This document shows, piece after piece, positions 7,736-27,722 of a DNA stretch of 27,760 bases. A model generated the notes under the pieces. That model was given only the letters and a program-made list of their open reading frames with translations. It was not told the DNA's origin and ran no database searches. Made by a program: the position numbers and the translations under genes. Location of the stretch: the IMG/VR virus record IMGVR_UViG_3300025647_000209, positions 1-27,760 of that record. One strand, written 5' to 3'. The DNA is from a virus. The first letter of the stretch is position 1. Each line of letters opens with the position of its first letter.

Positions 7736-8809
7736 TTATGCAAACTGTGTTTGTGCTGCTAAAACAGTAAATGTTGCAGATCCTGTTTTTATAACAGTAT
7801 ATGAATAAACATCAGTGCTACTAGCGTTTCCTGCAGTAGGTGCAGAACCGCCTTGCCATATTGGAGTTACTCCAGATCCATCAATTTGTACTGCTGAATT
7901 ATAATAAGCTGTTCCACCTTGAGGTACTGCATGAACAACAGTAATTGACTCTCCTGTGTCCATAATTGAATCAAGTGAATTAGAACCATCTCCTCTAATA
8001 TTTAGAGTCCAGTTTCCTGACGCATCTGTTGTAAAATTCCAAACAGCCTGAGTAATAACATCATAGTTAACTGTTCCTGTAGCAGCTGTCGCTTCAGTAG
8101 TAACTTTTTCAGCTACATGTTGAATTTTACCTGCTCCATTAAAAGTTATTCTTCCAATTCCTTTTGGAGTTAAATTTAAATCAACATTAGTGTCACCACC
8201 TGTTGCTGATACATTTGGAGCATTTCCAGTCGCAGCATTTGTTACTGTTAATTCGTTAACAGCAGATGCAGTTGTAGCAAATTTAATTTGCTCTAAACCG
8301 TTTTCATCTCCAATGAAGTTTCCATTATCAATTAAAATATTGTTTCCGTTTGCATCTAAGTTACCACCTAATTGAGGTGTAGTATCTTCAACAATATCTT
8401 TTAAGAAAAATACATCAACAACATTTGTTCCATCAGAATAAACCATTACTGATTTACCTGCAGGTATTGTTACACCTGATCCAGAAACTGTTTTAAAAGT
8501 TAAAGTAAAACCTGCTCTTGTTGTACCATCTACAACAATGTAAGTTTTTTCAATTCCATCTGGTACATTAACACTTCTATTTGCTGCTAAAGTTCCAGTT
8601 AATTTTAATACAATGTTTCTAGCATTTGATAATGCAGCTTGAGACATAGTTAAAGTTACATCTGCTGATGCAACATCGATAGCTTCATAACCTGCAATTG
8701 CTTGTTGTAATAAGTTTAAATTTGTATTTGTTTTATCTCCCCATGTACCCGAGTTTTCACCCGTTACCATCAGTTCGAGTTTTAAATCTGTAGAATAACT
8801 TGATGCCAT
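7736..8809 (-). CDS. Tail fibre protein
   Basis: This 357-residue protein opens with SYSTDLKLELMVTGENSGTW, followed by GDKTNTNLNLLQQAIAG. That N-terminal block is, to my knowledge, one of the most typical tail fibre starts in marine phages, and probably the virion attachment domain. Residues about 60-130 are beta-strand-rich (NIVLKLTGTLAANRSVNVPD, YIVVDGTTRAGFTLTFKTVS), then LGGNLDANGNNILIDNGN, a fibre-shaft repeat style, and a C-terminal Ser/Thr-rich beta region. It lies upstream of the glycine-rich tip gene, so the two probably form one fibre. It ends in a short VLAAQTQFA tail. No chaperone-like peptidase domain is visible. Confidence 0.85.
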   Translation of the reverse strand: MASSYSTDLKLELMVTGENSGTWGDKTNTNLNLLQQAIAGYEAIDVASADVTLTMSQAALSNARNIVLKLTGTLAANRSVNVPDGIEKTYIVVDGTTRAGFTLTFKTVSGSGVTIPAGKSVMVYSDGTNVVDVFFLKDIVEDTTPQLGGNLDANGNNILIDNGNFIGDENGLEQIKFATTASAVNELTVTNAATGNAPNVSATGGDTNVDLNLTPKGIGRITFNGAGKIQHVAEKVTTEATAATGTVNYDVITQAVWNFTTDASGNWTLNIRGDGSNSLDSIMDTGESITVVHAVPQGGTAYYNSAVQIDGSGVTPIWQGGSAPTAGNASSTDVYSYTVIKTGSATFTVLAAQTQFA

Positions 8810-12570: not shown

Positions 12571-12849
12571 TTACTTTAGTAAATCTCCATAATAAGATAC
12601 TAAGCTAGGGTTAGATAATTCAATATCTGCTGAATCGTGTTTTACAAATTTACCAAAATACTCACTTCTTTTTTTATATTCACCAGAAGTTTCAGTTTCC
12701 ATAATTGGTCTATGTGATTTAGCGTGATCAACTGATAAACCTTTTTGTGCTTTTTTTGGTTTAGGAACACAGTTAGGTACTTTTCTACCATTCTTAGTTT
12801 TCATACCAACCATTTCGTATCCTTCCCAACAAGGTCCTTTTTTAGCCAT
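12571..12849 (-). CDS. Conserved hypothetical, KKGPCWEGYEMVG protein
   Basis: This 92-residue protein opens AKKGPCWEGYEMVGMKTKNG followed by RKVPNCVPKPKK. The 'CWEGYEMVG-MK-KNGRKVPNCVP' block is familiar from marine phages and contains two conserved Cys (C7, C27), which may pair or bind metal. The rest is charged (DHAKSHRPIMETETSG) and it ends SYYGDLLK, loosely like the DYIKDLL tails described in the findings. Start ATG 12849 overlaps the preceding 31-residue gene's stop (TAATG). Role unknown; position in the microprotein block between endolysin and adaptor. Confidence 0.75.
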   Translation of the reverse strand: MAKKGPCWEGYEMVGMKTKNGRKVPNCVPKPKKAQKGLSVDHAKSHRPIMETETSGEYKKRSEYFGKFVKHDSADIELSNPSLVSYYGDLLK

Positions 12850-17461: not shown

Positions 17462-18460
17462 TTATTGTACCTCCTTCACGTATTTAGCGTATTCTTCTAG
17501 TGGCACCCCTAATTTTTTGGCAATAGCCACCTGTGATTTGGTGAGTCTCACAGATCTACGTCCCTGCTGACTTCTGCCAGCACTAGCAACTTTTTGGACG
17601 GGTCTTCGTTGCTCAGATTGAAAACGGTGAGGGAAATTTTCCTTCATACGTTTATCAATCTCATTATAATACTCTTCACTCTCTACATCAACTCCCATAC
17701 CCACTAGATCTTCGTGTACAGTCATTGCTGCGTTTGTCATGATTTTATCATTACCAAACCAAGTGTTTTTAGACGCCCAATCCTGAGCTTTTCTACTAGG
17801 CTCGGCTGGTACTACGTCTTGTTGAGTATATTTTGGCTCTTCTTTAACGCTATTTTTCTGTTCTTCTAGCTGTTTAAGTCTAGCTTCTCTATCAGCCATC
17901 TTAATTCTAGCTTTTTCTTTTTCAACAGATAATCTAGTTAACTCATCGTTAGCTTCCATAATTTTTTCAGCATCATTATTTTCAATAGCTTCTTTGAGTT
18001 TTCTTTTTACCTGTTCTCTTTGAGAATCAACTCTAGCGTCAAATTCTTTCAGATATTTTTCATCTGCAGAATCATATTTAGTTACAGAATCGTCATACTT
18101 TTTCTGTAAACCTTTTGCAAAATCCAAAGCAGCTTTTTCTCTTCTTTCAGCTTCTCTGTATTTTCTTGTTAGTTTGTCTATTCTCTTCCTTACAGATTCA
18201 GATATCTTAGTTAAATCATCTGGATCTTCTGTAGGTTGTGTTTGTTGTTTAGGTTCTTCGATCTCTTCAACAACAACTTCTTCTTTTGGTTGCTCCTTGT
18301 CGTGATCTGTATAACCTAAGTCTACTTCACCAACATTTAAGTTGGCTTCTTTAGATTCTTCCTTTTGTTGTTCCTCAATTTTAACTTCTGTTTCTTTAAC
18401 ATCGTCTAAATCAAGTTCAACTTCAGGTTCTATCTTAGCTTGTTCTTGTGCATCAGCCAT
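17462..18460 (-). CDS. Capsid scaffolding protein
   Basis: This 332-residue protein has a very acidic N-terminal 70 residues (Glu/Asp runs), a long coiled coil around residues 80-205 (KRIDKLTRKYREAERREKAA; LKEAIENNDAEKIMEANDEL), and a basic C-terminus (RSVRLTKSQVAIAKKLGVPL) which looks like the coat-binding helix-loop-helix of internal scaffolds such as P22 gp8. Position just upstream of the head genes agrees. It is likely lost from the head before or during packaging, but no protease is encoded here to cut it, so release in intact form is more likely. Ribosome site GGAGG near the start. Confidence 0.85.
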   Translation of the reverse strand: MADAQEQAKIEPEVELDLDDVKETEVKIEEQQKEESKEANLNVGEVDLGYTDHDKEQPKEEVVVEEIEEPKQQTQPTEDPDDLTKISESVRKRIDKLTRKYREAERREKAALDFAKGLQKKYDDSVTKYDSADEKYLKEFDARVDSQREQVKRKLKEAIENNDAEKIMEANDELTRLSVEKEKARIKMADREARLKQLEEQKNSVKEEPKYTQQDVVPAEPSRKAQDWASKNTWFGNDKIMTNAAMTVHEDLVGMGVDVESEEYYNEIDKRMKENFPHRFQSEQRRPVQKVASAGRSQQGRRSVRLTKSQVAIAKKLGVPLEEYAKYVKEVQ

Positions 18461-19700: not shown

Positions 19701-20081
19701 CTACTTACGTTTGATTAAATCAGTAGCTTTAAGTCCGTATACGCTCGCGATTACTCCTACGAAAATTGTCTGATACCAGAATGGTAGTTGAGAAAAGTAT
19801 TCGAAGAAAAGTTTCATTTTGTCCATCGCAGTTGGATCATCCGAAAAAACTGCCCAAGCCAACAAAACTATAGGAGCTGACAATAATAATAAAATAAATT
19901 CGTCCTTCCAGTCGGATTCTCTTGCTTCTAATAATTTACCGTTGTATTCCAATTCTCCACGAGCCTGCATTTCTGCATTTCTTAATGCAGCATCAGACAT
20001 TGCTTGTTTCGTCTTTTGTTTGTTCGAGTACAGGTGGGCTCCAGTTTTTAGGGCCATTCCCAATAGATTGAACCACGGCAT
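19701..20081 (-). CDS. Holin-like membrane protein (GTA_holin_3TM-like)
   Basis: This 126-residue protein starts MPWFNLLGMALKTGAHLYSN, has a helical charged part, then LLEARESDWKDEFILLLLSA, and membrane segments at about 62-80 (FILLLLSAPIVLLAWAVF) and 103-117 (YQTIFVGVIASVYGL), ending KATDLIKRK. The block 'YNGKLLEARESDWKDEF-L-LLS-PI' is one I associate with the gene-transfer-agent-type holin family in marine phages. Its start lies inside the end of the homing endonuclease-like gene (89-base overlap in a different frame). The AGGAG before ATG is rather far (14 bases). It sits 6 kb from the endolysin. Confidence 0.8.
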   Translation of the reverse strand: MPWFNLLGMALKTGAHLYSNKQKTKQAMSDAALRNAEMQARGELEYNGKLLEARESDWKDEFILLLLSAPIVLLAWAVFSDDPTAMDKMKLFFEYFSQLPFWYQTIFVGVIASVYGLKATDLIKRK

Positions 20082-20397
20082 AATATTGTTCTTTTCTCCT
20101 TATACCTAAATATGGTAGCATTTCCTCCATAAGCTGTAAAGCACGGCTACCTGAAAGTGTAAAACGATATTGATCTTTGTAGTGTTCTTTTCTTTTTCGT
20201 TTAAAGTGAATTTTTTTATTTGTATTACAATATCTTTGAAATTTTTGTACAACGTCTTCATCTGACATTTGCACTTCTAGTACAGCTGTAGGAGTAAAAG
20301 TAGGATGGTTAGTTCTATTTAAGCCAAACCAACCTTCTCCTTCAAAAATACCTGCAAGTAATATTAATTGTTCTTTTTTAGAAAGTTGATCGAACAT
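19993..20397 (-). CDS. LAGLIDADG-type homing endonuclease-like protein
   Basis: This 134-residue protein has a single LAGLIDADG-like motif at residues 13-22 (LLAGIFEGEG), then WFGLNRTNHPTFTPTAVLEV, QMSDEDVVQKFQRYCNTNKK and a basic stretch IHFKRKRKEHYKDQYRFTLS. The pattern (LAG-FEGEG-F, DVV-F) is typical of compact phage homing endonucleases; with one motif it would work as a homodimer. Because such genes spread by cutting cognate alleles, it is probably a mobile insertion. Its last 89 bases overlap the holin-like gene's start, so a cleavage target at that junction is plausible. No intron is visible. Confidence 0.72.
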   Translation of the reverse strand: MFDQLSKKEQLILLAGIFEGEGWFGLNRTNHPTFTPTAVLEVQMSDEDVVQKFQRYCNTNKKIHFKRKRKEHYKDQYRFTLSGSRALQLMEEMLPYLGIRRKEQYYAVVQSIGNGPKNWSPPVLEQTKDETSNV

Positions 20398-20404
20398 TAA
20401 AGAT

Positions 20405-20635
20405 TTATAACAAATCTTTTATATAATCGCCACCTTTAATTATCTCACCACCAGTAGATTTTTTATCTATTTTACCTGACCTTAGTATTCTTAGTGCTTG
20501 TGATATTTGTGATTCATTAGACATAGTTACATCTACATCCTCTTTCATAATTTTATCAAACTTTTTATGAAGATCTGGTCTATTCTTTAAAACTCTTTTA
20601 GCAATTTGACTACCAACGTATTTAATTACTGACAT
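20405..20635 (-). CDS. Small protein with GGDYIKDLL tail, 76 residues
   Basis: It opens MSVIKYVGSQIAKRVLKNRP, followed by a charged helix and the end TGGEIIKGGDYIKDLL. There are no Cys or membrane segments. The final seven residues DYIKDLL are identical to those of the 112- and 114-residue proteins at 26783-27722, though the rest differs and codons differ, pointing to a shared C-terminal peptide. It overlaps the 44-residue gene by 14 bases at its start. Function unknown; see findings. Confidence 0.7.
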   Translation of the reverse strand: MSVIKYVGSQIAKRVLKNRPDLHKKFDKIMKEDVDVTMSNESQISQALRILRSGKIDKKSTGGEIIKGGDYIKDLL

Positions 20636-20756
20636 TTAAACTTCTGCATTCCACACAGCCTTTTTTAAATTGTTCGTGATGATTACAATGCTTCTTTTCA
20701 AAGATTACAGGCTCGAATGGTTTAGGTTTAAACAATCTTCTTAACCAAGCAAACAT
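20622..20756 (-). CDS. 44-residue Cys/His cluster protein, possible zinc binder
   Basis: ATG 20756 opens MFAWLRRLFKPKPFEPVIFE, then KKHCNHHEQFKKGCVECRSL and NVSN, stop TAA 20624-20622. The Cys/His set (H23, C24, H26, H27, C34, C37) with a G-C-x2-C knuckle resembles a zinc-binding motif. The N-terminal segment is basic/hydrophobic. Its ATG overlaps the preceding stop (TAATG), which supports it being real. No known family. Confidence 0.6.
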   Translation of the reverse strand: MFAWLRRLFKPKPFEPVIFEKKHCNHHEQFKKGCVECRSLNVSN

Positions 20757-20956
20757 TATCTAACTCCTTGAAAGTTAAAACCTTTAACTTGAATACGTTT
20801 TGTTCCTCTTGCACCTTGGCTCATACAATCATCACAGCCACAACCCATACCTCCGTTGTTTTTGTGCATACCACCACAACTTAATTTAACAGGTGGTACT
20901 TGTGAGTTAGGTCCTTTTTTAGGAGGAACTGTTGTTGTTAATTTTTTATTTATCAT
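20756..20956 (-). CDS. Cys/Gly-rich small protein, 66 residues
   Basis: It begins MINKKLTTTVPPKKGPNSQV, an opening I recall from many small marine-phage proteins, and then has VKLSCGGMHKNNGGMGCGCD followed by DCMSQGARGTKRIQVKGFNF and QGVR. Cys residues at 27, 39, 41 and 44 could bind a metal. 'LSCGGM-K' and the end F-x-G-V-[KR] recur in the 86-residue protein at 27121. It overlaps the next gene as TAATG and the previous as ATGA. Function unknown. Confidence 0.72.
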   Translation of the reverse strand: MINKKLTTTVPPKKGPNSQVPPVKLSCGGMHKNNGGMGCGCDDCMSQGARGTKRIQVKGFNFQGVR

Positions 20957-21660
20957 AATAAACTTTTATCTACGTTAGATGATATCACAACTTCTCCACC
21001 ATCATCATAAGCTTTAAAACCAGATAAAAATGGATTAGGTGTTGATACAGGATTTTTAATTTGTGTTACTGGTGTTTTACAAGGAGGTGTTGTTCCATCT
21101 GGACAAAGAGAAGGGTTATTATCTCCACTATTGTTATTAGCTCCTAAAGTATAGTTAGGTTTTTTATAAAAAGCTTCATCACCTGTATCTACAAATTTTT
21201 GTGACATTAAAGTTGGTTTATTTTTTAAATCAGTTGTGAGATTTTTAACTGTTTTAGCTCCTGCAGTTAATAATCCGATTGGTGCTTCAAATAACTTACT
21301 TGCACTCATAGTTAAAATAGTTCTACCTATGTTTAATAGTCCAGGACCTCCACCTGAAGTTCCTGTTGAACCTGTAGTTTTTGCTCCTGTATTTACTTGT
21401 GGTGATCCACCACCGCCATCTCCTGCGCTTGAATTAACTGATGAAGTCTGTCTGTCAGAATATGTGCTTATTCCAGGTTCACTAGATAATGCAGCTTCAT
21501 ATCCAGAAACTTCACTAGGAGAACCTCCTCTTCTTAATTGTTTAATTCCTTTTAATTTTCCAGAATTTTCCATAGCATAGAAAACAGTTTTACCTTTTTT
21601 CTTACCGTATTGCTTCTCCATTGAAGCTAAAATTTTTTTACCTTTGTCGTTTAGCGGCAT
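20953..21660 (-). CDS. GG-tailed structural-region protein, 235 residues
   Basis: The opening MPLNDKGKKILASMEKQYGK followed by KKGKTVFYAMENSGKLKGI is a widespread small helical domain in marine phages. The middle is a Gly/Ser/Thr-rich linker with PGLLNIGRTILTMSASKLFE as a helical segment. The end, SGFKAYDDGGEVVISSNVDK followed by SLL, has a FKAY-x2-GG-x-VV block also found at the end of the 771-residue protein. It overlaps the portal gene's stop by 23 bases and the next gene as ATGA. Probably head or neck-associated; role unknown. Confidence 0.72.
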   Translation of the reverse strand: MPLNDKGKKILASMEKQYGKKKGKTVFYAMENSGKLKGIKQLRRGGSPSEVSGYEAALSSEPGISTYSDRQTSSVNSSAGDGGGGSPQVNTGAKTTGSTGTSGGGPGLLNIGRTILTMSASKLFEAPIGLLTAGAKTVKNLTTDLKNKPTLMSQKFVDTGDEAFYKKPNYTLGANNNSGDNNPSLCPDGTTPPCKTPVTQIKNPVSTPNPFLSGFKAYDDGGEVVISSNVDKSLL

Positions 21661-23983
21661 TAGATCTCTCTCTTTGTATTCTTTCGTTCATATCCATTTT
21701 CTCCTCCGCAATTCTAATTCGTTCTGCAGCTTGATCTTCCGCAGATTCTAATTTCATTTTATCAAGGTCTATACGATCTTCAAACTCCATAGCTTTTCTT
21801 TCTATGTCTTGTTGAGTTTCCATAGCCTTTCTTTGCATATCCATAGCTTTTAAATCTAATTCTCTTTGTTTCAATGCAACTAGTGGATCTTCTTTTTGAC
21901 CACCTGCTTCTTCTTGAGCAAGTTGAGCAGTGATCTCTGCAACTTTTCTAGCTACCAAAGAATTAAATAAAACTTGAAATCCTTGAGGATCTGCTTGTGC
22001 TTGTGCTTGTAATTCAGGTGAATTTTGTACCATATCACCAATTTCACCGTGCGCTTTTAATGCAATGTGATCAGATATGTGTCCTTGTAGTAAAGCATAA
22101 ACCATTGGATTAATTTGAACCATTCTTGTAGCCATAAAAGCTCTGTGAGCCATAATATGTGCATCGTGATCTTGTTCAGGAAACGCTTTTAACATTTGCA
22201 TCTGTAATGATTTAGCATTTTCAGTTGCAGGATCTTCAGGTTGAGGCATTATTTCTGGTTTTAGTAATGCATCGATATTTTTTGTTCCTAAAGCTTCATA
22301 AACTCGTCTGTAAGCTTCTCTTAAGTTGTGCATTTGCGGATTTGAGATAGCAATTTTTAAATTTTCGTTTGCTAAAGTTACTCTTTGTGACATTGAAAAG
22401 ATATTTGGGTCTGCAACAGGAATTACATCAACTCTATCATCAAAATCTTGTAATTTTACAAATCTATCTGCGTTTGTAACTGCATATGGATACACAGGAG
22501 GTAAATAATCAGCAAAAACTTTTGCTAAAAGTCTAAATTCTTGTCTCATTGCATAGTAACATCGCTTGTGAATAGCACTCATAACCCTCGAACCACGTTC
22601 CAAGAGAGCAATTGTTGTTCCAACAGCTCTATTTTGAGCATCTTCACCTAATTGCATGTCTGCAATCGCTGCAAATCTTTGTCCAGCTTGTACTACGAAG
22701 CCTAAAAGTTGGAATAAAGTAGCACTTGGCTCTTTAAAAGGTAAAATTTGAAACTGATCTCTGATATTTCCACCGGGAGCATCAACATCTCTGAACTCTC
22801 CAGGTTGAAAAGGTTGGTCATCATCTCTAATTCTGATACCTCTAGACTTAAATCCAGCAGGTAAGTTTGCTAAAGTACCTGCATCAAGCAATTGTCTTAA
22901 GGCTTGAGTAGCAGATCGTGATAATCCACCTATCATATGAATTAAACCAAAGCCATAAAAGCCTAAACCAGGTAAAAATTTGTAATGTACGAAGTATTCT
23001 TTTCTTTGATAAGTGTCATCATCTTGATTATAATTTCTATAAATAGATAAAACTTCTCCTGAACCTTCATCAATAGATACGATGTAAGGTAATTTAACTT
23101 CTTTTTCTGCATTTTCTACTTCAAACTCATTTAAGTTTAAATCAATATGCATTTCTAAAATATTATATTGATATTCTTTTTCTCCAGCAGGTTTAACACC
23201 TTCTAATTCGTTCAACTTATCTTGTATTGGACTTCTTTCAGGTTGTTTAGGTAATAATTCTACATCTCTATAGAATCCTGCTTTTTGTTGTTTAAGTACA
23301 TCGTTCTCTGACATCTTAACAATGTGTGTAATTCTTTCGCAATCTTTTAAATCTGTTGCATAATATGGAACAACTAAATCTTCAGCAGGTACAAATTTAG
23401 CAACTGCTCTTTGTTTAATTTCATCATAATAAATTTTTTTAAATGCAGATCCTGCTAATGGTAAATAAAATAATAATTGATCTGTATCTGGTGTGTATTC
23501 TTCCATTTGTTCCATCAACATATAATTCATAAAATCTTTAACTCTTTCTGCTTGTTGTGAAACTTCTTGTGTATCCGCACCTATAACTTGAGTTCTTACA
23601 GGTCCATCACTTGGTAATAATTCTTTGTATGCTTGTGCTTGAAATTGTGTAACAGCTTCTGACAAAAGAGGATGGGTAACACCGCTTGCACCTTGGAAAG
23701 GTCTAGTATTTTGTACATACTTGAATCCAAGTAAGTCTAAACCTTGAGTGTAAGCTTGTTCCCAATCCCCTCTTGAAACTTTATCTTTTTTGAAATCTGA
23801 AATAAGTTCTTGAGAAATTCGTCCGAGAGTTCTCTCGTCCATTTCATCTGCTAAGTTTCTGTAAAAGTCTTCTTCAGGTGATTCTTGTTCTTCAGGAACA
23901 TCTTCACCTTCAAGTTCTACATCAACTTCTTCTTCCACTTCTTCAGTTTCAGGAAGTTCATTTTGTTTTTCTACTTCAGCCAT
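21638..23983 (-). CDS. Portal protein, P22-like
   Basis: This 781-residue protein has an acidic Glu-rich first 45 residues, then RTLGRISQELISDFKKDKVS, RGDWEQAYTQGLDLLGFKYV and HPLLSEAVTQFQAQAYKELL, blocks I associate with P22-type portal proteins. Later parts contain DMQLGEDAQNRAVGTTIALL and a long charged C-terminal coiled coil (REAYRRVYEALGTKN, LALKQRELDLKAMD-like, ERIRIAEEKMDMNER). The dodecameric portal ring forms the DNA channel at one vertex. Length is near P22 gp1 (725). It is followed by small GG-tailed genes and preceded by head-associated proteins. The terminase that should dock on it is not in the window. Confidence 0.9.
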   Translation of the reverse strand: MAEVEKQNELPETEEVEEEVDVELEGEDVPEEQESPEEDFYRNLADEMDERTLGRISQELISDFKKDKVSRGDWEQAYTQGLDLLGFKYVQNTRPFQGASGVTHPLLSEAVTQFQAQAYKELLPSDGPVRTQVIGADTQEVSQQAERVKDFMNYMLMEQMEEYTPDTDQLLFYLPLAGSAFKKIYYDEIKQRAVAKFVPAEDLVVPYYATDLKDCERITHIVKMSENDVLKQQKAGFYRDVELLPKQPERSPIQDKLNELEGVKPAGEKEYQYNILEMHIDLNLNEFEVENAEKEVKLPYIVSIDEGSGEVLSIYRNYNQDDDTYQRKEYFVHYKFLPGLGFYGFGLIHMIGGLSRSATQALRQLLDAGTLANLPAGFKSRGIRIRDDDQPFQPGEFRDVDAPGGNIRDQFQILPFKEPSATLFQLLGFVVQAGQRFAAIADMQLGEDAQNRAVGTTIALLERGSRVMSAIHKRCYYAMRQEFRLLAKVFADYLPPVYPYAVTNADRFVKLQDFDDRVDVIPVADPNIFSMSQRVTLANENLKIAISNPQMHNLREAYRRVYEALGTKNIDALLKPEIMPQPEDPATENAKSLQMQMLKAFPEQDHDAHIMAHRAFMATRMVQINPMVYALLQGHISDHIALKAHGEIGDMVQNSPELQAQAQADPQGFQVLFNSLVARKVAEITAQLAQEEAGGQKEDPLVALKQRELDLKAMDMQRKAMETQQDIERKAMEFEDRIDLDKMKLESAEDQAAERIRIAEEKMDMNERIQRERSNAAKRQR

Positions 23984-23985
23984 TG

Positions 23986-24429
23986 TTATGTTATGATAGT
24001 TCTTTTATTTCTTCCTAACTTACAGCCTCTAGCTAAAACCATAGTTCCGTTATTAGCTTTAATCATTTTACCTGTTTTAGCACTATAAGGATCTAGACCA
24101 AAAGATTCAGAAGATCTAGGTCCCATTTTAGGTAACATATCTCTAACTTTAGTTTTTGGATCGGTAGTAAAAATTTCATCTTTTAAAAAAGATTTAGTTT
24201 TTCCCCAAAATGAATTTGCGTCTCTAGCTTTTTTAGCCGCGATACCAGCTTCCATATTTTTTCTAGCACCCATTGCTAATGCAGTGTCGTTAGCCATTTC
24301 AGAACCAAGATCACCTGTATCAACTGCAGACGCAGCCATTTTAGCTTTATTCGCAGCACCTAGCATTTTAGCTCCTGCTACTCCTGCTAAACCTGCAATT
24401 AAAGCTTTTTTTAGTTTTTTGCTTGCCAT
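23986..24429 (-). CDS. Ala-rich head-associated protein, 147 residues
   Basis: It begins MASKKLKKALIAGLAGVAGA and continues KMLGAANKAKMAASAVDTGD, a hydrophobic/amphipathic Ala/Gly stretch, then RKNMEAGIAAKKARDANSFW and a basic C-terminus (NNGTMVLARGCKLGRNKRTI). AAGGAG precedes ATG 24429. The Ala/Gly helix with flanking Lys resembles membrane-active or ejection-protein segments. Its final RGCKLGRNKR is Gly/Arg-rich like the other tails. Probably head-packaged, by context only. Confidence 0.68.
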   Translation of the reverse strand: MASKKLKKALIAGLAGVAGAKMLGAANKAKMAASAVDTGDLGSEMANDTALAMGARKNMEAGIAAKKARDANSFWGKTKSFLKDEIFTTDPKTKVRDMLPKMGPRSSESFGLDPYSAKTGKMIKANNGTMVLARGCKLGRNKRTIIT

Positions 24430-24467
24430 GATATATATCTCCTTTTTGTTATAACAGAATTATAATA

Positions 24468-26783
24468 TCATGCAAATATATTTACGACTAGACCGCCTTC
24501 TTGGTAAGCTTTGAAAGGTTTAGTTTTCATTTCAGGAGTGATTTTTATACCAAAAGCTTTATAATATAGTCTTGGATCTCCTTCAGGAATCATATCAATA
24601 TAAAACTTACTACTTTGATTTAATTGATCTAAATAAAGCTCTGCATCTTTTCTACTAGCAAAAGCTGCTCTATGATCTGATACATCATCAGGTTTTAAAC
24701 CAAAGTCTTTTGCTTTTTCTGTTCCTCTAGTATCAATAACTTTAAAAGGTTTGTTAACATCTGATTTAGCAACTTCAATAGTTTTAACCTCTGAATTGTA
24801 TTGTCTTGCTAATTTTTTCATCACATTAGGAATAGTAGCTTCTTTTTTAGGATCTGTTAAATCTTTAATTAGTTTTGTTGCTGATGTATCGGTTCTATCT
24901 TCTGGATCTCTCGTTACAACATTTTGTTTTCTTCCATAGTTTTTAAAACCTGCTTTACCTGTGCTTGTTCCATAAAATTCTAAGTCACCTAAAAATCTGT
25001 TTCTTCCACCATATGTTTTTAAATGATGTATTTGTTCAACAGGATTTATTACAACCCAATCCGCATCTCCTCTTTGAGCTGCTTGTTTAATTGTATTTTT
25101 AATAGCGTGCACTCCCCAGTTTTCTTTTCCATACAAAGGTAAGAATGGAATTGCATCTTGTTTTAAAGAAACATCTCTTTCGGTAATACTTGCTAAGTTT
25201 AATGTATTCTTTTTTAATTCATTAAAATCATTTTCTAAAGAATAATATTTTCTTATATCTTCTTTAGTCATATTACGACCTTTGTCTGTAATTTGTTTCA
25301 TCTCATCTAATAAACCCTCTAGTTTTCTGTTTGATGAAAAAAACTCAACCTCTGCTCCAAATGGGTTTACAACTTTATCCCTTATTGGATTTTCTTTTTG
25401 TAATTTTTGATGGTAGTCTGATTGTATTTCATCAATTGAAATAATTCTTTGATTAGGATTTGCTCCTTGACGATATTGATATCTTACATGATAAATTTGA
25501 TTAGGTAGAGAACTATAGTGCTTTTGATATCCTTCAGGTAATTGCATACCAAAAGGTAATTTTTCTGGATAATAAACTACATCTTCGTGATAACTTAAAC
25601 CACCGTGTTTTCTATAGTCTCCGTGACTACCATATCTAGGTAGTTTATTTTCTTGTGAAAATAAACTTGCTCTTCTCATTAAATTTTGATTAGCGTTTTG
25701 TATAGTTACTAATTCTTCAGCAAAAGAAGCAGGTACCTCAACACCTAGGTCTCTTAACTCTTTATCAATTTGACCTAATCGATTAAGCTGACTTTTAAAT
25801 AAGCCTTCATTAAAAGAAGTATGTATACCTTGTCGTAAAGATTCTTCAGTGCCTCTTACAACATTCATTTGTTCTTTGTTATTTAAATTTCTAACAAAAG
25901 TAATTGCTTCTTTAATCTTTTCTTGTTTAGCTACATCTCCAGCATAGTTAGCTTGTAGACTTAATAATTTAGATTCTAAATTGTAAGATGCATTTGTGAT
26001 CTTACTACTCATATCTTGAACTTCATCAGCGAGTTTAGGATTAGTTGAGAAGCGTTTTGTAACAAGTTTATTAACAGGAGCTTTGTTTACAATATATAAT
26101 AAATCCATTTTAGTTAATGGAAGATTCTTCTCATCAGCATATTTTAAAAAGCCACCTACGACTCGACCATCTTTGTCTAATTGCAATAAGTTAGAGTCCC
26201 ATAACTCATCTCGTTTAATACCTTGATCAATCATTTTAAAATCAGGATTACCTGTTTTAAAATTACCTATTCCTTTTGATTGAAAATCTCTAATCCAATC
26301 TTTAGGTTTTCTTGCAGTATCGATAGGGTGTCGTGCAATAAAATCCCATAACGAAGAACCTATACCGTCTTTCTTAGTTCCACCAAACGATAGTGGATTA
26401 TGATAAGCCATTTTTTTAAGTTCTTTAGATCTTTCCATAATAGCCATTGCTTCAGCTTGTTTTGCTGATTGCTTAACTAACTGTTGAGCTCGTTCTGTTC
26501 TGTTTGGAGCAATCGCTAAAATCCCTGAGACTTCATCAACAACTTCTTTACTGGGCGTTGGTTCGGGGAGCTTGGGTGGTTTAAGTTTGATTGTTTTGTT
26601 AATGGCTCTAGCAATCGGGTTTCTAAGAGCCACGGCTCCGGCACCAGCTAAAGCGAGTCCTACGATTCCTTGCGTTGCAGAAGGTTCATATTTTTCTTTG
26701 TATTCAAAATCTGATGGAACAGAAGATGTTGGTTCTGTGTCACCTTTATTATTATATAATTTTTGTAAAGATGATTCAGCCAT
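24468..26783 (-). CDS. Large virion-associated protein with EIQSD polyvalent domain
   Basis: This 771-residue protein has an N-terminal hydrophobic segment (39-53, GIVGLALAGAGAVAL), helical stretches to about 380, then around 420-460 the block HYSSLPNQIYHVRYQYRQ...IISIDEIQSDYHQ and at about 536-580 PFLPLYGKENWGVHAIKNTI and ADWVVINP. This matches the recurring phage domain 'H-R...IEEIQSDWHQ...W-A-K--I--A...D-I' found in large polyvalent proteins; its activity is unknown. It ends KPFKAYQEGGLVVNIFA, resembling the 235-residue protein end. A role as an ejected protein is inferred from the position before the portal gene and the hydrophobic helix. It is TAATG-coupled to the previous gene. Confidence 0.75.
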   Translation of the reverse strand: MAESSLQKLYNNKGDTEPTSSVPSDFEYKEKYEPSATQGIVGLALAGAGAVALRNPIARAINKTIKLKPPKLPEPTPSKEVVDEVSGILAIAPNRTERAQQLVKQSAKQAEAMAIMERSKELKKMAYHNPLSFGGTKKDGIGSSLWDFIARHPIDTARKPKDWIRDFQSKGIGNFKTGNPDFKMIDQGIKRDELWDSNLLQLDKDGRVVGGFLKYADEKNLPLTKMDLLYIVNKAPVNKLVTKRFSTNPKLADEVQDMSSKITNASYNLESKLLSLQANYAGDVAKQEKIKEAITFVRNLNNKEQMNVVRGTEESLRQGIHTSFNEGLFKSQLNRLGQIDKELRDLGVEVPASFAEELVTIQNANQNLMRRASLFSQENKLPRYGSHGDYRKHGGLSYHEDVVYYPEKLPFGMQLPEGYQKHYSSLPNQIYHVRYQYRQGANPNQRIISIDEIQSDYHQKLQKENPIRDKVVNPFGAEVEFFSSNRKLEGLLDEMKQITDKGRNMTKEDIRKYYSLENDFNELKKNTLNLASITERDVSLKQDAIPFLPLYGKENWGVHAIKNTIKQAAQRGDADWVVINPVEQIHHLKTYGGRNRFLGDLEFYGTSTGKAGFKNYGRKQNVVTRDPEDRTDTSATKLIKDLTDPKKEATIPNVMKKLARQYNSEVKTIEVAKSDVNKPFKVIDTRGTEKAKDFGLKPDDVSDHRAAFASRKDAELYLDQLNQSSKFYIDMIPEGDPRLYYKAFGIKITPEMKTKPFKAYQEGGLVVNIFA

Positions 26784-27121
26784 TATAATAAATCCTTTAT
26801 GTAATCTTTAACTGAACCGCCTTTGGAAAACTTTTTTGTAAATTTAATTCCAAATTGTTTATCGAAAGATCCTTGTCCTTTAAAAGTATCTTTACCAAAA
26901 GGATGTTCAACATCAGCTCTACCTGAACCTTTGCCTACGCTTCCAGTAATTTTTAAATTAGTTGTATCAGTATCAATGATGTTATATTCACCTTTAACAC
27001 CATAATATCTATTTTCTGTTTCGACTTTAACTTTAGGATCAGGATTAAAAGAACCTTTAGAAATATTTATATTAGGTCCTATTTTGAATTTAGGCTTTTT
27101 ATCGGACATTTTATCGGACAT
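26783..27121 (-). CDS. Small protein with DYIKDLL tail, 112 residues
   Basis: It starts MSDKMSDKKPKFKIGPNINI, with two possible ATGs (27121 and 27109) owing to a 12-base duplication, then KVETENRYYGVKGEYNIIDT, TGSVGKGSGRADVEHPFGKD, FGIKFTKKFSKGGSVKDYIK and DLL. Alternating hydrophobic and polar residues suggest a beta structure. It ends DYIKDLL, shared with two other genes. The codons for KDL double as a ribosome-binding site for the 771-residue gene (AAGGATTT). It overlaps both neighbours as TAATG. Function unknown. Confidence 0.72.
   Translation of the reverse strand: MSDKMSDKKPKFKIGPNINISKGSFNPDPKVKVETENRYYGVKGEYNIIDTDTTNLKITGSVGKGSGRADVEHPFGKDTFKGQGSFDKQFGIKFTKKFSKGGSVKDYIKDLL
27098..27121. 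repeat. 12-base tandem duplication at gene start
   Basis: TTTATCGGACAT occurs twice in a row (27098-27109 and 27110-27121), encoding MSDK twice and giving two in-frame start codons. It looks like a recent slippage duplication. The outer ATG keeps the TAATG overlap with the previous gene. Confidence 0.75.
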
Positions 27122-27381
27122 TACTTAACTCCGATAAATTTTCCGCCCCTTACTGCTTTGCCCATTCCGCCACAAGATAAATTCAACATTGATTTAACTC
27201 TGCTTTCAGGACTAATAGAAAATCCAAATGCAGGAGGTTTTTCAAATTCACCTATACCTGTGATTCTCTTCGCTGCGTTTAAAGTAGCATCCGCTTCACC
27301 TGCTCTTTTACCAACATAGTTAGATGCTAATAAAGCTGCTCCCATAGGAATAGCTTTTTTAATTTTATCTCTTTTACTCAT
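27121..27381 (-). CDS. Small GG-tailed protein, 86 residues
   Basis: It begins MSKRDKIKKAIPMGAALLAS, with a short hydrophobic Ala/Gly segment, then NYVGKRAGEADATLNAAKRI, and ends LNLSCGGMGKAVRGGKFIGV plus K. The tail shares 'LSCGGM-K' and F-x-G-V-[KR] with the 66-residue protein. It overlaps the previous gene as ATGA and the next as TAATG. Probably a minor head component by position; no function known. Confidence 0.7.
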   Translation of the reverse strand: MSKRDKIKKAIPMGAALLASNYVGKRAGEADATLNAAKRITGIGEFEKPPAFGFSISPESRVKSMLNLSCGGMGKAVRGGKFIGVK

Positions 27382-27722
27382 AGTAAATCCTTAATGTAGT
27401 CAGCCATTCCACCTGTAGCTTTTTTATCTACTTTGACGTCTTCGCTTTTCTTGTCTTCGTTTTTTAATTTTGATTTAGCATACTCGTAACCTGCGCCTGC
27501 ACCTGCACCTACTTTTACTGCTGTATCTACAATTCTACCAATAGGTGATTTTTTAAAAATACTGCTAGCAACTTTTGAAACAGTTGTTGGTGCTGGTCTT
27601 GGCATATCTTTTAATGCCGAGCTAAATTTTACAGGTGAATTTTTATTCACTGTTGTTGTAGGAAATGATCCTAATGATTTATATTTGTCACTTAAACCTT
27701 TTAATTTACTTTTGTCAGCCAT
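27378..27722 (-). CDS. Small protein with DYIKDLL tail, 114 residues
   Basis: It begins MADKSKLKGLSDKYKSLGSF, has a Ser/Thr/Pro-rich part (VKFSSALKDMPRPAPTTVSK), a short hydrophobic Gly/Ala helix (GRIVDTAVKVGAGAGAGYEY) and ends ATGGMADYIKDLL. AAAGGAG lies about ten bases before ATG 27722, so it begins a translated unit here. It is the first gene seen in the transcript within the window; the promoter and terminase genes must be further upstream. Function unknown; the Ala/Gly helix is like those of ejection proteins. Confidence 0.72.
   Translation of the reverse strand: MADKSKLKGLSDKYKSLGSFPTTTVNKNSPVKFSSALKDMPRPAPTTVSKVASSIFKKSPIGRIVDTAVKVGAGAGAGYEYAKSKLKNEDKKSEDVKVDKKATGGMADYIKDLL

Follow-up and report, generated by a model that had tools for sequence, protein, structure and literature searches.

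A C-terminal peptide, DYIKDLL, shared by unrelated small proteins of HTVC023P-type phages: a candidate docking tag

Introduction

Why should three small phage proteins with different bodies end in the same seven residues? The question is raised by virus record IMGVR_UViG_3300025647_000209, a stretch of 27,760 bases that is here called the window, in which genes for proteins of 76, 112 and 114 amino acids (aa) each stop directly after DYIKDLL. The phage is an ocean virus and resembles Pelagibacter phage HTVC023P, its portal protein being 69.8% identical to that of HTVC023P over 95%. Here we show that the peptide is a real tag, conserved as a peptide, carried by unrelated protein bodies and located, in the genomes examined, mostly in the structural gene block. 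As for its role, DYIKDLL may be the end of a C-terminal docking tag by which diverse proteins are brought to the virion during its assembly, a reading that leans on analogy and to which we give a probability of roughly 0.5.

Three tagged proteins in one phage

The three genes and their tails are arranged as follows.

20405..20635, minus strand: 76-aa tagged protein, just downstream of the portal gene; C-terminus KGGDYIKDLL
20408..20452, minus strand: tail tag GGEIIKGGDYIKDLL of the 76-aa protein
26783..27121, minus strand: 112-aa tagged protein, upstream of the gene for a 771-aa protein; C-terminus KGGSVKDYIKDLL; family of 8 members on 8 contigs
26786..26821, minus strand: tail tag GGSVKDYIKDLL of the 112-aa protein
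27378..27722, minus strand: 114-aa tagged protein, first in the array; C-terminus TGGMADYIKDLL
27381..27413, minus strand: tail tag GGMADYIKDLL of the 114-aa protein

These ends were read correctly in the original prediction, as were the minus-strand open reading frames (ORFs) and the differing codons of the three tags. The DYIKDLL coding pattern occurs three times in the window, at these C-termini and nowhere else. When the proteins are compared pairwise by BLAST, the alignment is confined to the tail for all pairs except one: between 26783-27121 and 27378-27722 it spans 51 residues (35% identity, E 0.002), owing mostly to the tail. None of the three has a match of meaningful E-value in PHROGs or Pfam. 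To this extent the earlier statement that they lack similarity elsewhere holds, but each has relatives in related uncultured phages. In one such relative (L010), the homologue of the 114-aa protein comes after terL. The 76-aa protein has 27 distinct relatives among the matches listed, and in an alignment of 24 sequences 10 of the 20 invariant columns lie within the last 15 residues; the tail is the most conserved part of the family.

The tails are predicted to be flexible or disordered. AlphaFold2 models the 76-aa protein as three helices followed by a coil tail, with a mean predicted local distance difference test score (pLDDT) of 62 that falls to 45-47 in the tail blocks. For the 771-aa neighbor (predicted template modeling score 0.72), the low-confidence tail comprises exactly residues 763-771, from Gly-Gly on, with pLDDT below 50.

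Frequency of the peptide and its full motif

The viral sequences of IMG/VR were scanned with a DNA pattern for the peptide followed by a TAA or TGA stop, patterns of this kind accepting Leu or Phe at the last two positions. At least 119 viral stretches carry DYIKDLL before a stop, as against 2 for the reversed and 1 for the scrambled peptide, and chance is thereby excluded as the cause of the shared end. The enrichment at C-termini that had been predicted for related phages is thus borne out. As raw DNA matches, 27 viral stretches have the same seven residues followed by Lys instead of a stop. Across 257 Gb of cellular genomes (84,980 bacteria and archaea, one genome per species) the pattern was found in 16 stretches. 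Eight of these read DYIKDLL* exactly, only one of which ends a long ORF (294 aa), and GG is found in none of the eight within the displayed 60 residues. A tail score of at least 14 was reached by 186 of 2523 ORF ends and by none of 387,204 internal decamers. The scored loci had been picked by tag plus stop, so that the informative part of this result is the internal zero; the fair controls are the internal decamers and the scans with rearranged peptides, the latter covering the DYIKDLL class only.

The shared end proved larger than reported, being part of a longer motif and one of several tail classes. Among 155 exact tags in the viral loci, where near-identical contigs are counted repeatedly, 147 have GG in the preceding 21 residues. 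In a wider class of 157 distinct tails, GG is found in the last 25 residues of 142, mostly 16-18 residues before the C-terminus. Their consensus reads GG-x-[VI]-x-[IV]-x-K-G-x-DYIKDL[LI], that is, GG plus about 15 residues. A looser variant had also been suspected on another protein of the window:

12571..12849, minus strand: 92-aa protein ending SYYGDLLK

This suspicion is plausible, as YYGDLLK, YYGELLK, DYYKDIM and DYYKDLM recur in adaptor-side genes.

Unrelated bodies behind one tail

The tagged proteins could instead be diverged copies of one ancestor, with the tail as their last recognizable part. Body families were built by single linkage after removal of the last 20 residues. The 187 distinct tagged proteins of 136 contigs fall into 30 families with lengths from 54 to 297 aa, and 72 of the contigs carry at least two tags, seven of them four. 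In profile-profile comparison none of the 435 family pairs reached 70% probability (the highest being 69.1); as a positive control, five families were split in half, and their halves scored 91-100. Moreover, one body may bear different tails, KYYKDML in one genome (G001) and KDYIKDLL or KDYLKDLL elsewhere. What speaks for common descent is that the largest family, joined by single linkage, holds 74 of the 187 proteins, that one profile pair comes as high as 69.1, and that two window proteins (26783 and 27378) can be aligned along 51 residues (E 0.002). With no pair at 70%, with lengths this varied and with tails exchanged on one body, we regard hidden homology as improbable. The same C-terminal peptide is found on non-homologous proteins beyond chance, and the proposal of a peptide-level tag on unrelated proteins stands.

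As an observation by eye on these bodies, tagged or neighboring proteins often start with an EF-hand-like stretch such as FPDLNKDGKVTFKDIL (L072; L126 28689-28955).

Peptide or DNA

The other way to share an end without a function of the peptide is through the DNA: the gene end could serve as the ribosome-binding site of a next gene that overlaps it, or mark a recombination junction common to the genes. A ribosome-binding role is indeed visible in the codons. Where the next start overlaps the tag, the Lys codon is AAG in 31 of 53 cases; where it does not, in 7 of 36 (Fisher p 4.0e-4). Among Lys codons of protein bodies the figure is 182 of 1640. However, of the 89 tags open to judgment 36 lack an overlapping start, and 29 of these 36 use AAA. 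The 76-aa protein of the window is a case of genes that do not overlap, the next gene (19993-20397) beginning 7 bases past its stop. The conserved tail also extends about 10 residues upstream of any ribosome-binding site. The ribosome-binding site was therefore rejected as sole cause and is kept as an added constraint that shapes codon choice at Lys only, and not the peptide. The alternative raised in the original prediction accounts for this much and no more.

Codon variation points the same way. The 90 distinct tag DNAs hold 45 distinct 21-nt cores, and the 23 tag pairs on the same contig differ on average at 3.30 of 7 codons, as much as random tags do (2.96). There is no identical core among these pairs, and recent duplication of gene ends was rejected on this ground. 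Since codons vary and 36 of 89 tags lack an overlap, the peptide is the conserved entity, and we hold a cause at the level of DNA to be very improbable.

Genomic location and the proposed role

The tagged genes lie around the portal gene of the window:

21638..23983, minus strand: portal protein (phrog_1216, E 2.6e-47; similar to that of HTVC023P)

They are arrayed between terL and portal, one family sits immediately past portal, and the looser variants adjoin adaptor genes; the expectation that they would flank portal and terminase is borne out by such an array around terL and portal in HTVC023P-type relatives. On contigs that bear a portal gene, 203 of 204 ORFs of class A (DYIKDLL), 182 of 184 of class B and 68 of 68 of class C lie no farther from it than 6 kb on the upstream or 3 kb on the downstream side, a proximity that is partly built in because the loci are centred on tags. 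In eight long genomes (for HTVC023P, its first 50,000 bases), the broad classes, which are regular expressions drawn after the data had been seen, account for 42 tails, and 40 of these are in the structural module, which holds 304 of the 700 ORFs. The overlap filter used in this count loses some true tags, for instance an A tag at G003 30666. On 11 of the 136 tagged contigs, all of them short, none of the sought core structural homologues is present.

The arrangement suggests the following mechanism. A Gly-Gly linker, an alternating hydrophobic stretch and KGxDYIKDLL would together make a flexible tail on many small unrelated proteins, whose genes belong to the head/portal block of HTVC023P-type phages. 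The tail would be read by one genome-encoded partner, which is most likely part of the head under assembly or of the portal vertex, and a changing set of proteins would thereby be collected at or inside the virion. We infer docking, the identity of the partner as a virion component, and the travel of tagged proteins in the particle alike. The tails themselves are suggestive in this regard. Outside the core, tails of different families on one contig are identical at 4.93 of 10 positions, versus 4.23 +- 0.15 when shuffled among contigs within families (0 of 2000 shuffles), a likeness that would follow if the tails of one phage all had to fit a single partner.

Several observations weigh against docking to the virion. 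The shuffling ignores phylogeny, and with shared ancestry of the contigs outside the model, the likeness of tails within a contig is suggestive at most; the 7-residue core shows no such excess (1067 of 2000), which is expected because the contigs were chosen on the core. GG is absent from 15 of the 157 distinct tails. Close cultured relatives (7 isolate records) yielded one match to a degenerate pattern, in HTVC023P, and with only this loose form the tag would be dispensable in the wider group. Two tails, at G001 36309 and G005 8007, are outside the structural module. No receptor or other binding partner of the tail turned up, and literature searches returned no virion proteomics of these phages. 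Matches to 'proteomic' in PMC10149686 were rejected, since the term denotes a tree method there. As a further search of cultured phages, INPHARED was queried with the 28-aa tag (nothing at E 10), a B tail (one chance-level match) and a C tail (HTVC023P at E 9), all short queries and thus weak tests.

The two outlying genes, G001 36309-36548 and G005 8007-8246, each adjoin a short ORF with a hydrophobic end. Such neighbors off the head genes would suit a docking tag that is read by a partner outside the virion, a phage or host factor such as a chaperonin, the replication or packaging machinery or a membrane protein, acting in assembly or takeover. All peptide-level evidence for the tag fits this alternative equally well, and a GroES-type gene lies within the module. 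The placement of the tags around terL and portal and among adaptor genes argues in the other direction, and we consider a non-virion partner a serious though rather doubtful alternative to docking on the assembling virion.

Other tail classes and neighboring genes

DYIKDLL is one of several shared ends in this gene block. In a test free of any motif, run on 144 loci, we counted pairs of ORFs that belong to different families and agree at 6 of 8 residues. There are 7,225 such pairs at the last 8 residues, 45 at the first 8, and 0, 3 and 4 in three internal draws. With 329 loci, there are 21,988 end pairs versus 338 start pairs and 17-24 internal pairs. Loci L004-L122, L193-L312 and L313-L370 were chosen by their tails, and the cross-family counts for classes A, B and C are inflated for this reason. 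The largest groups are GTKFKGVF, DYIKDLL and RSKPTKLF/FKKKTPIY; smaller ones include KYYKGML and NVDKDLL, the latter common to 2 body families. Scans for the second and third classes gave at least 120 and exactly 87 stretches, and in the loci read the second (GTKFKGVF/GGKFIGVK) is found on 47 body families and the third (RSKPTKLF/SKPTKIC) on 18. In HTVC023P itself gp30, gp32, gp51, gp52 and gp53 have GG tails. Tails of this kind occur in the window beside the main tag:

27124..27171, minus strand: second-class tail (GG..AVRGGKFIGVK) of the 86-aa protein 27121-27381
23986..24429, minus strand: 147-aa protein with the third-class-like tail ARGCKLGRNKRTIIT, without GG; class assigned by a post hoc pattern
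20956..21000, minus strand: tail GGEVVISSNVDKSLL of the 235-aa protein 20953-21660, with a layout that parallels the main tag
24468..26783, minus strand: 771-aa protein, with a fold weakly like large proteins of uncultured phages, polyvalent-type proteins included
24471..24497, minus strand: tail GGLVVNIFA of the 771-aa protein

This diversity bears on another explanation, namely that the tail is a signal for degradation or processing, recognized by a protease or an adaptor, or cleaved at Gly-Gly as the head matures. A flexible hydrophobic C-terminus, with Gly-Gly at what is predicted to be the fold boundary, would suit such a signal. Very different classes side by side, including the basic RSKPTKLF and GTKFKGVF, do not, and no protease partner turned up, though no search aimed at one was made; we find this explanation unlikely. 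If docking on the virion is right, the classes could be address labels at the C-terminus that are interchangeable (DYIKDLL, GTKFKGVF, RSKPTKLF, GGLVVNIFA and others). A different virion site would read each of them, and together they would load a fast-turning protein repertoire for delivery to the host. HTVC023P-type phages would then have a modular packaging code in which the cargo varies and the address is constant. We offer this extension as tentative.

The 771-aa protein has an invariant IDEIQSD-type region in addition to its GG tail. In its family of 25 sequences GG is invariant, with 22 ending in GGLVV[ND][IL]FA and 3 otherwise. No Pfam model matches the window protein at E 0.01. Its predicted fold matches uncharacterized proteins of uncultured phages in BFVD (E 1.7e-12) and, weakly, ART-PolyVal-like (5.7e-3) and large polyvalent protein associated domain (6.0e-3) entries, with no PDB match below E 0.19. 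Sequence searches of PDB with the capsid protein, the portal and the 771-aa alignment gave nothing useful, the capsid protein having no match.

Two further ends were noticed. Small ORFs of 6 body families share the end [FYR]L[IV]KTYGH after YRDLLS, without GG (L125 9991-10236, L147 1742-1954 and others), and in HTVC023P such ORFs are outside the head module. A putative scaffold protein of the window (17462-18460, so labeled from gene order) has the C-terminus LGVPLEEYAKYVKEVQ, and the faintly tag-like end LGVPLEEYAKYVKE of such putative scaffolds is found in many contigs and conserved across many relatives. As it also occurs where no A tag was seen, it is no more than a lead.

Comparison with known systems

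Searches of the open-licence literature for the peptide, or for shared C-terminal tags in such phages, found nothing, and the available part of the paper on HTVC023P-type genomes does not mention C-termini (PMC9599517). A tag of this kind would mark which unknown proteins act together, giving these genes a common, testable role, and would put at hand a peptide with which foreign proteins could be loaded into phage particles; several parallel tags would amount to a sorting principle not described in the literature searched.

Some parallels are found among proteins carried, or predicted to be carried, by phage particles. The ejection proteins of P22 and SPN3US travel inside the head until they are delivered to the cell, but the parts of the sources available on them describe no shared C-terminal tag. 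In many phages, packaging is predicted for proteins encoded near portal, according to the available sections of Iyer et al. (2017, PMC5512222). The polyvalent proteins described there, large, encoded beside portal and predicted to be packaged and injected, recall the 771-aa neighbor, to which they are weakly similar by fold. They differ in that those sections describe no shared C-terminal tail, and most tagged proteins here are small.

Two systems use a short peptide as an address. The capsid targeting sequence of T4 is N-terminal and is cut by the prohead protease, whereas the tag of the window is C-terminal and follows GG. The N-terminal position typical of the T4 type is thus not found for DYIKDLL. 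The likeness lies in the proteins so addressed, as the T-even internal proteins are, in the available text of PMC3012670, a highly diverse set with only the capsid targeting sequence in common, matching the diverse, fast-changing proteins found here with only a short peptide in common. Family 1 encapsulin cargos need a C-terminal targeting or loading peptide to enter an HK97-fold shell (PMC8346489, in the part available), and here the likeness extends to position: a short C-terminal peptide behind a flexible linker, common to different proteins. The tail consensus, compared by eye, is unlike the TVGSL-type motif given in that part of PMC8346489, and the tags described here occur in phages and in several classes at once. 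We infer that the DYIKDLL tag may work like the capsid targeting sequence of T4 or the cargo peptides of encapsulins, as an analogue of both and not as a demonstrated member of either.

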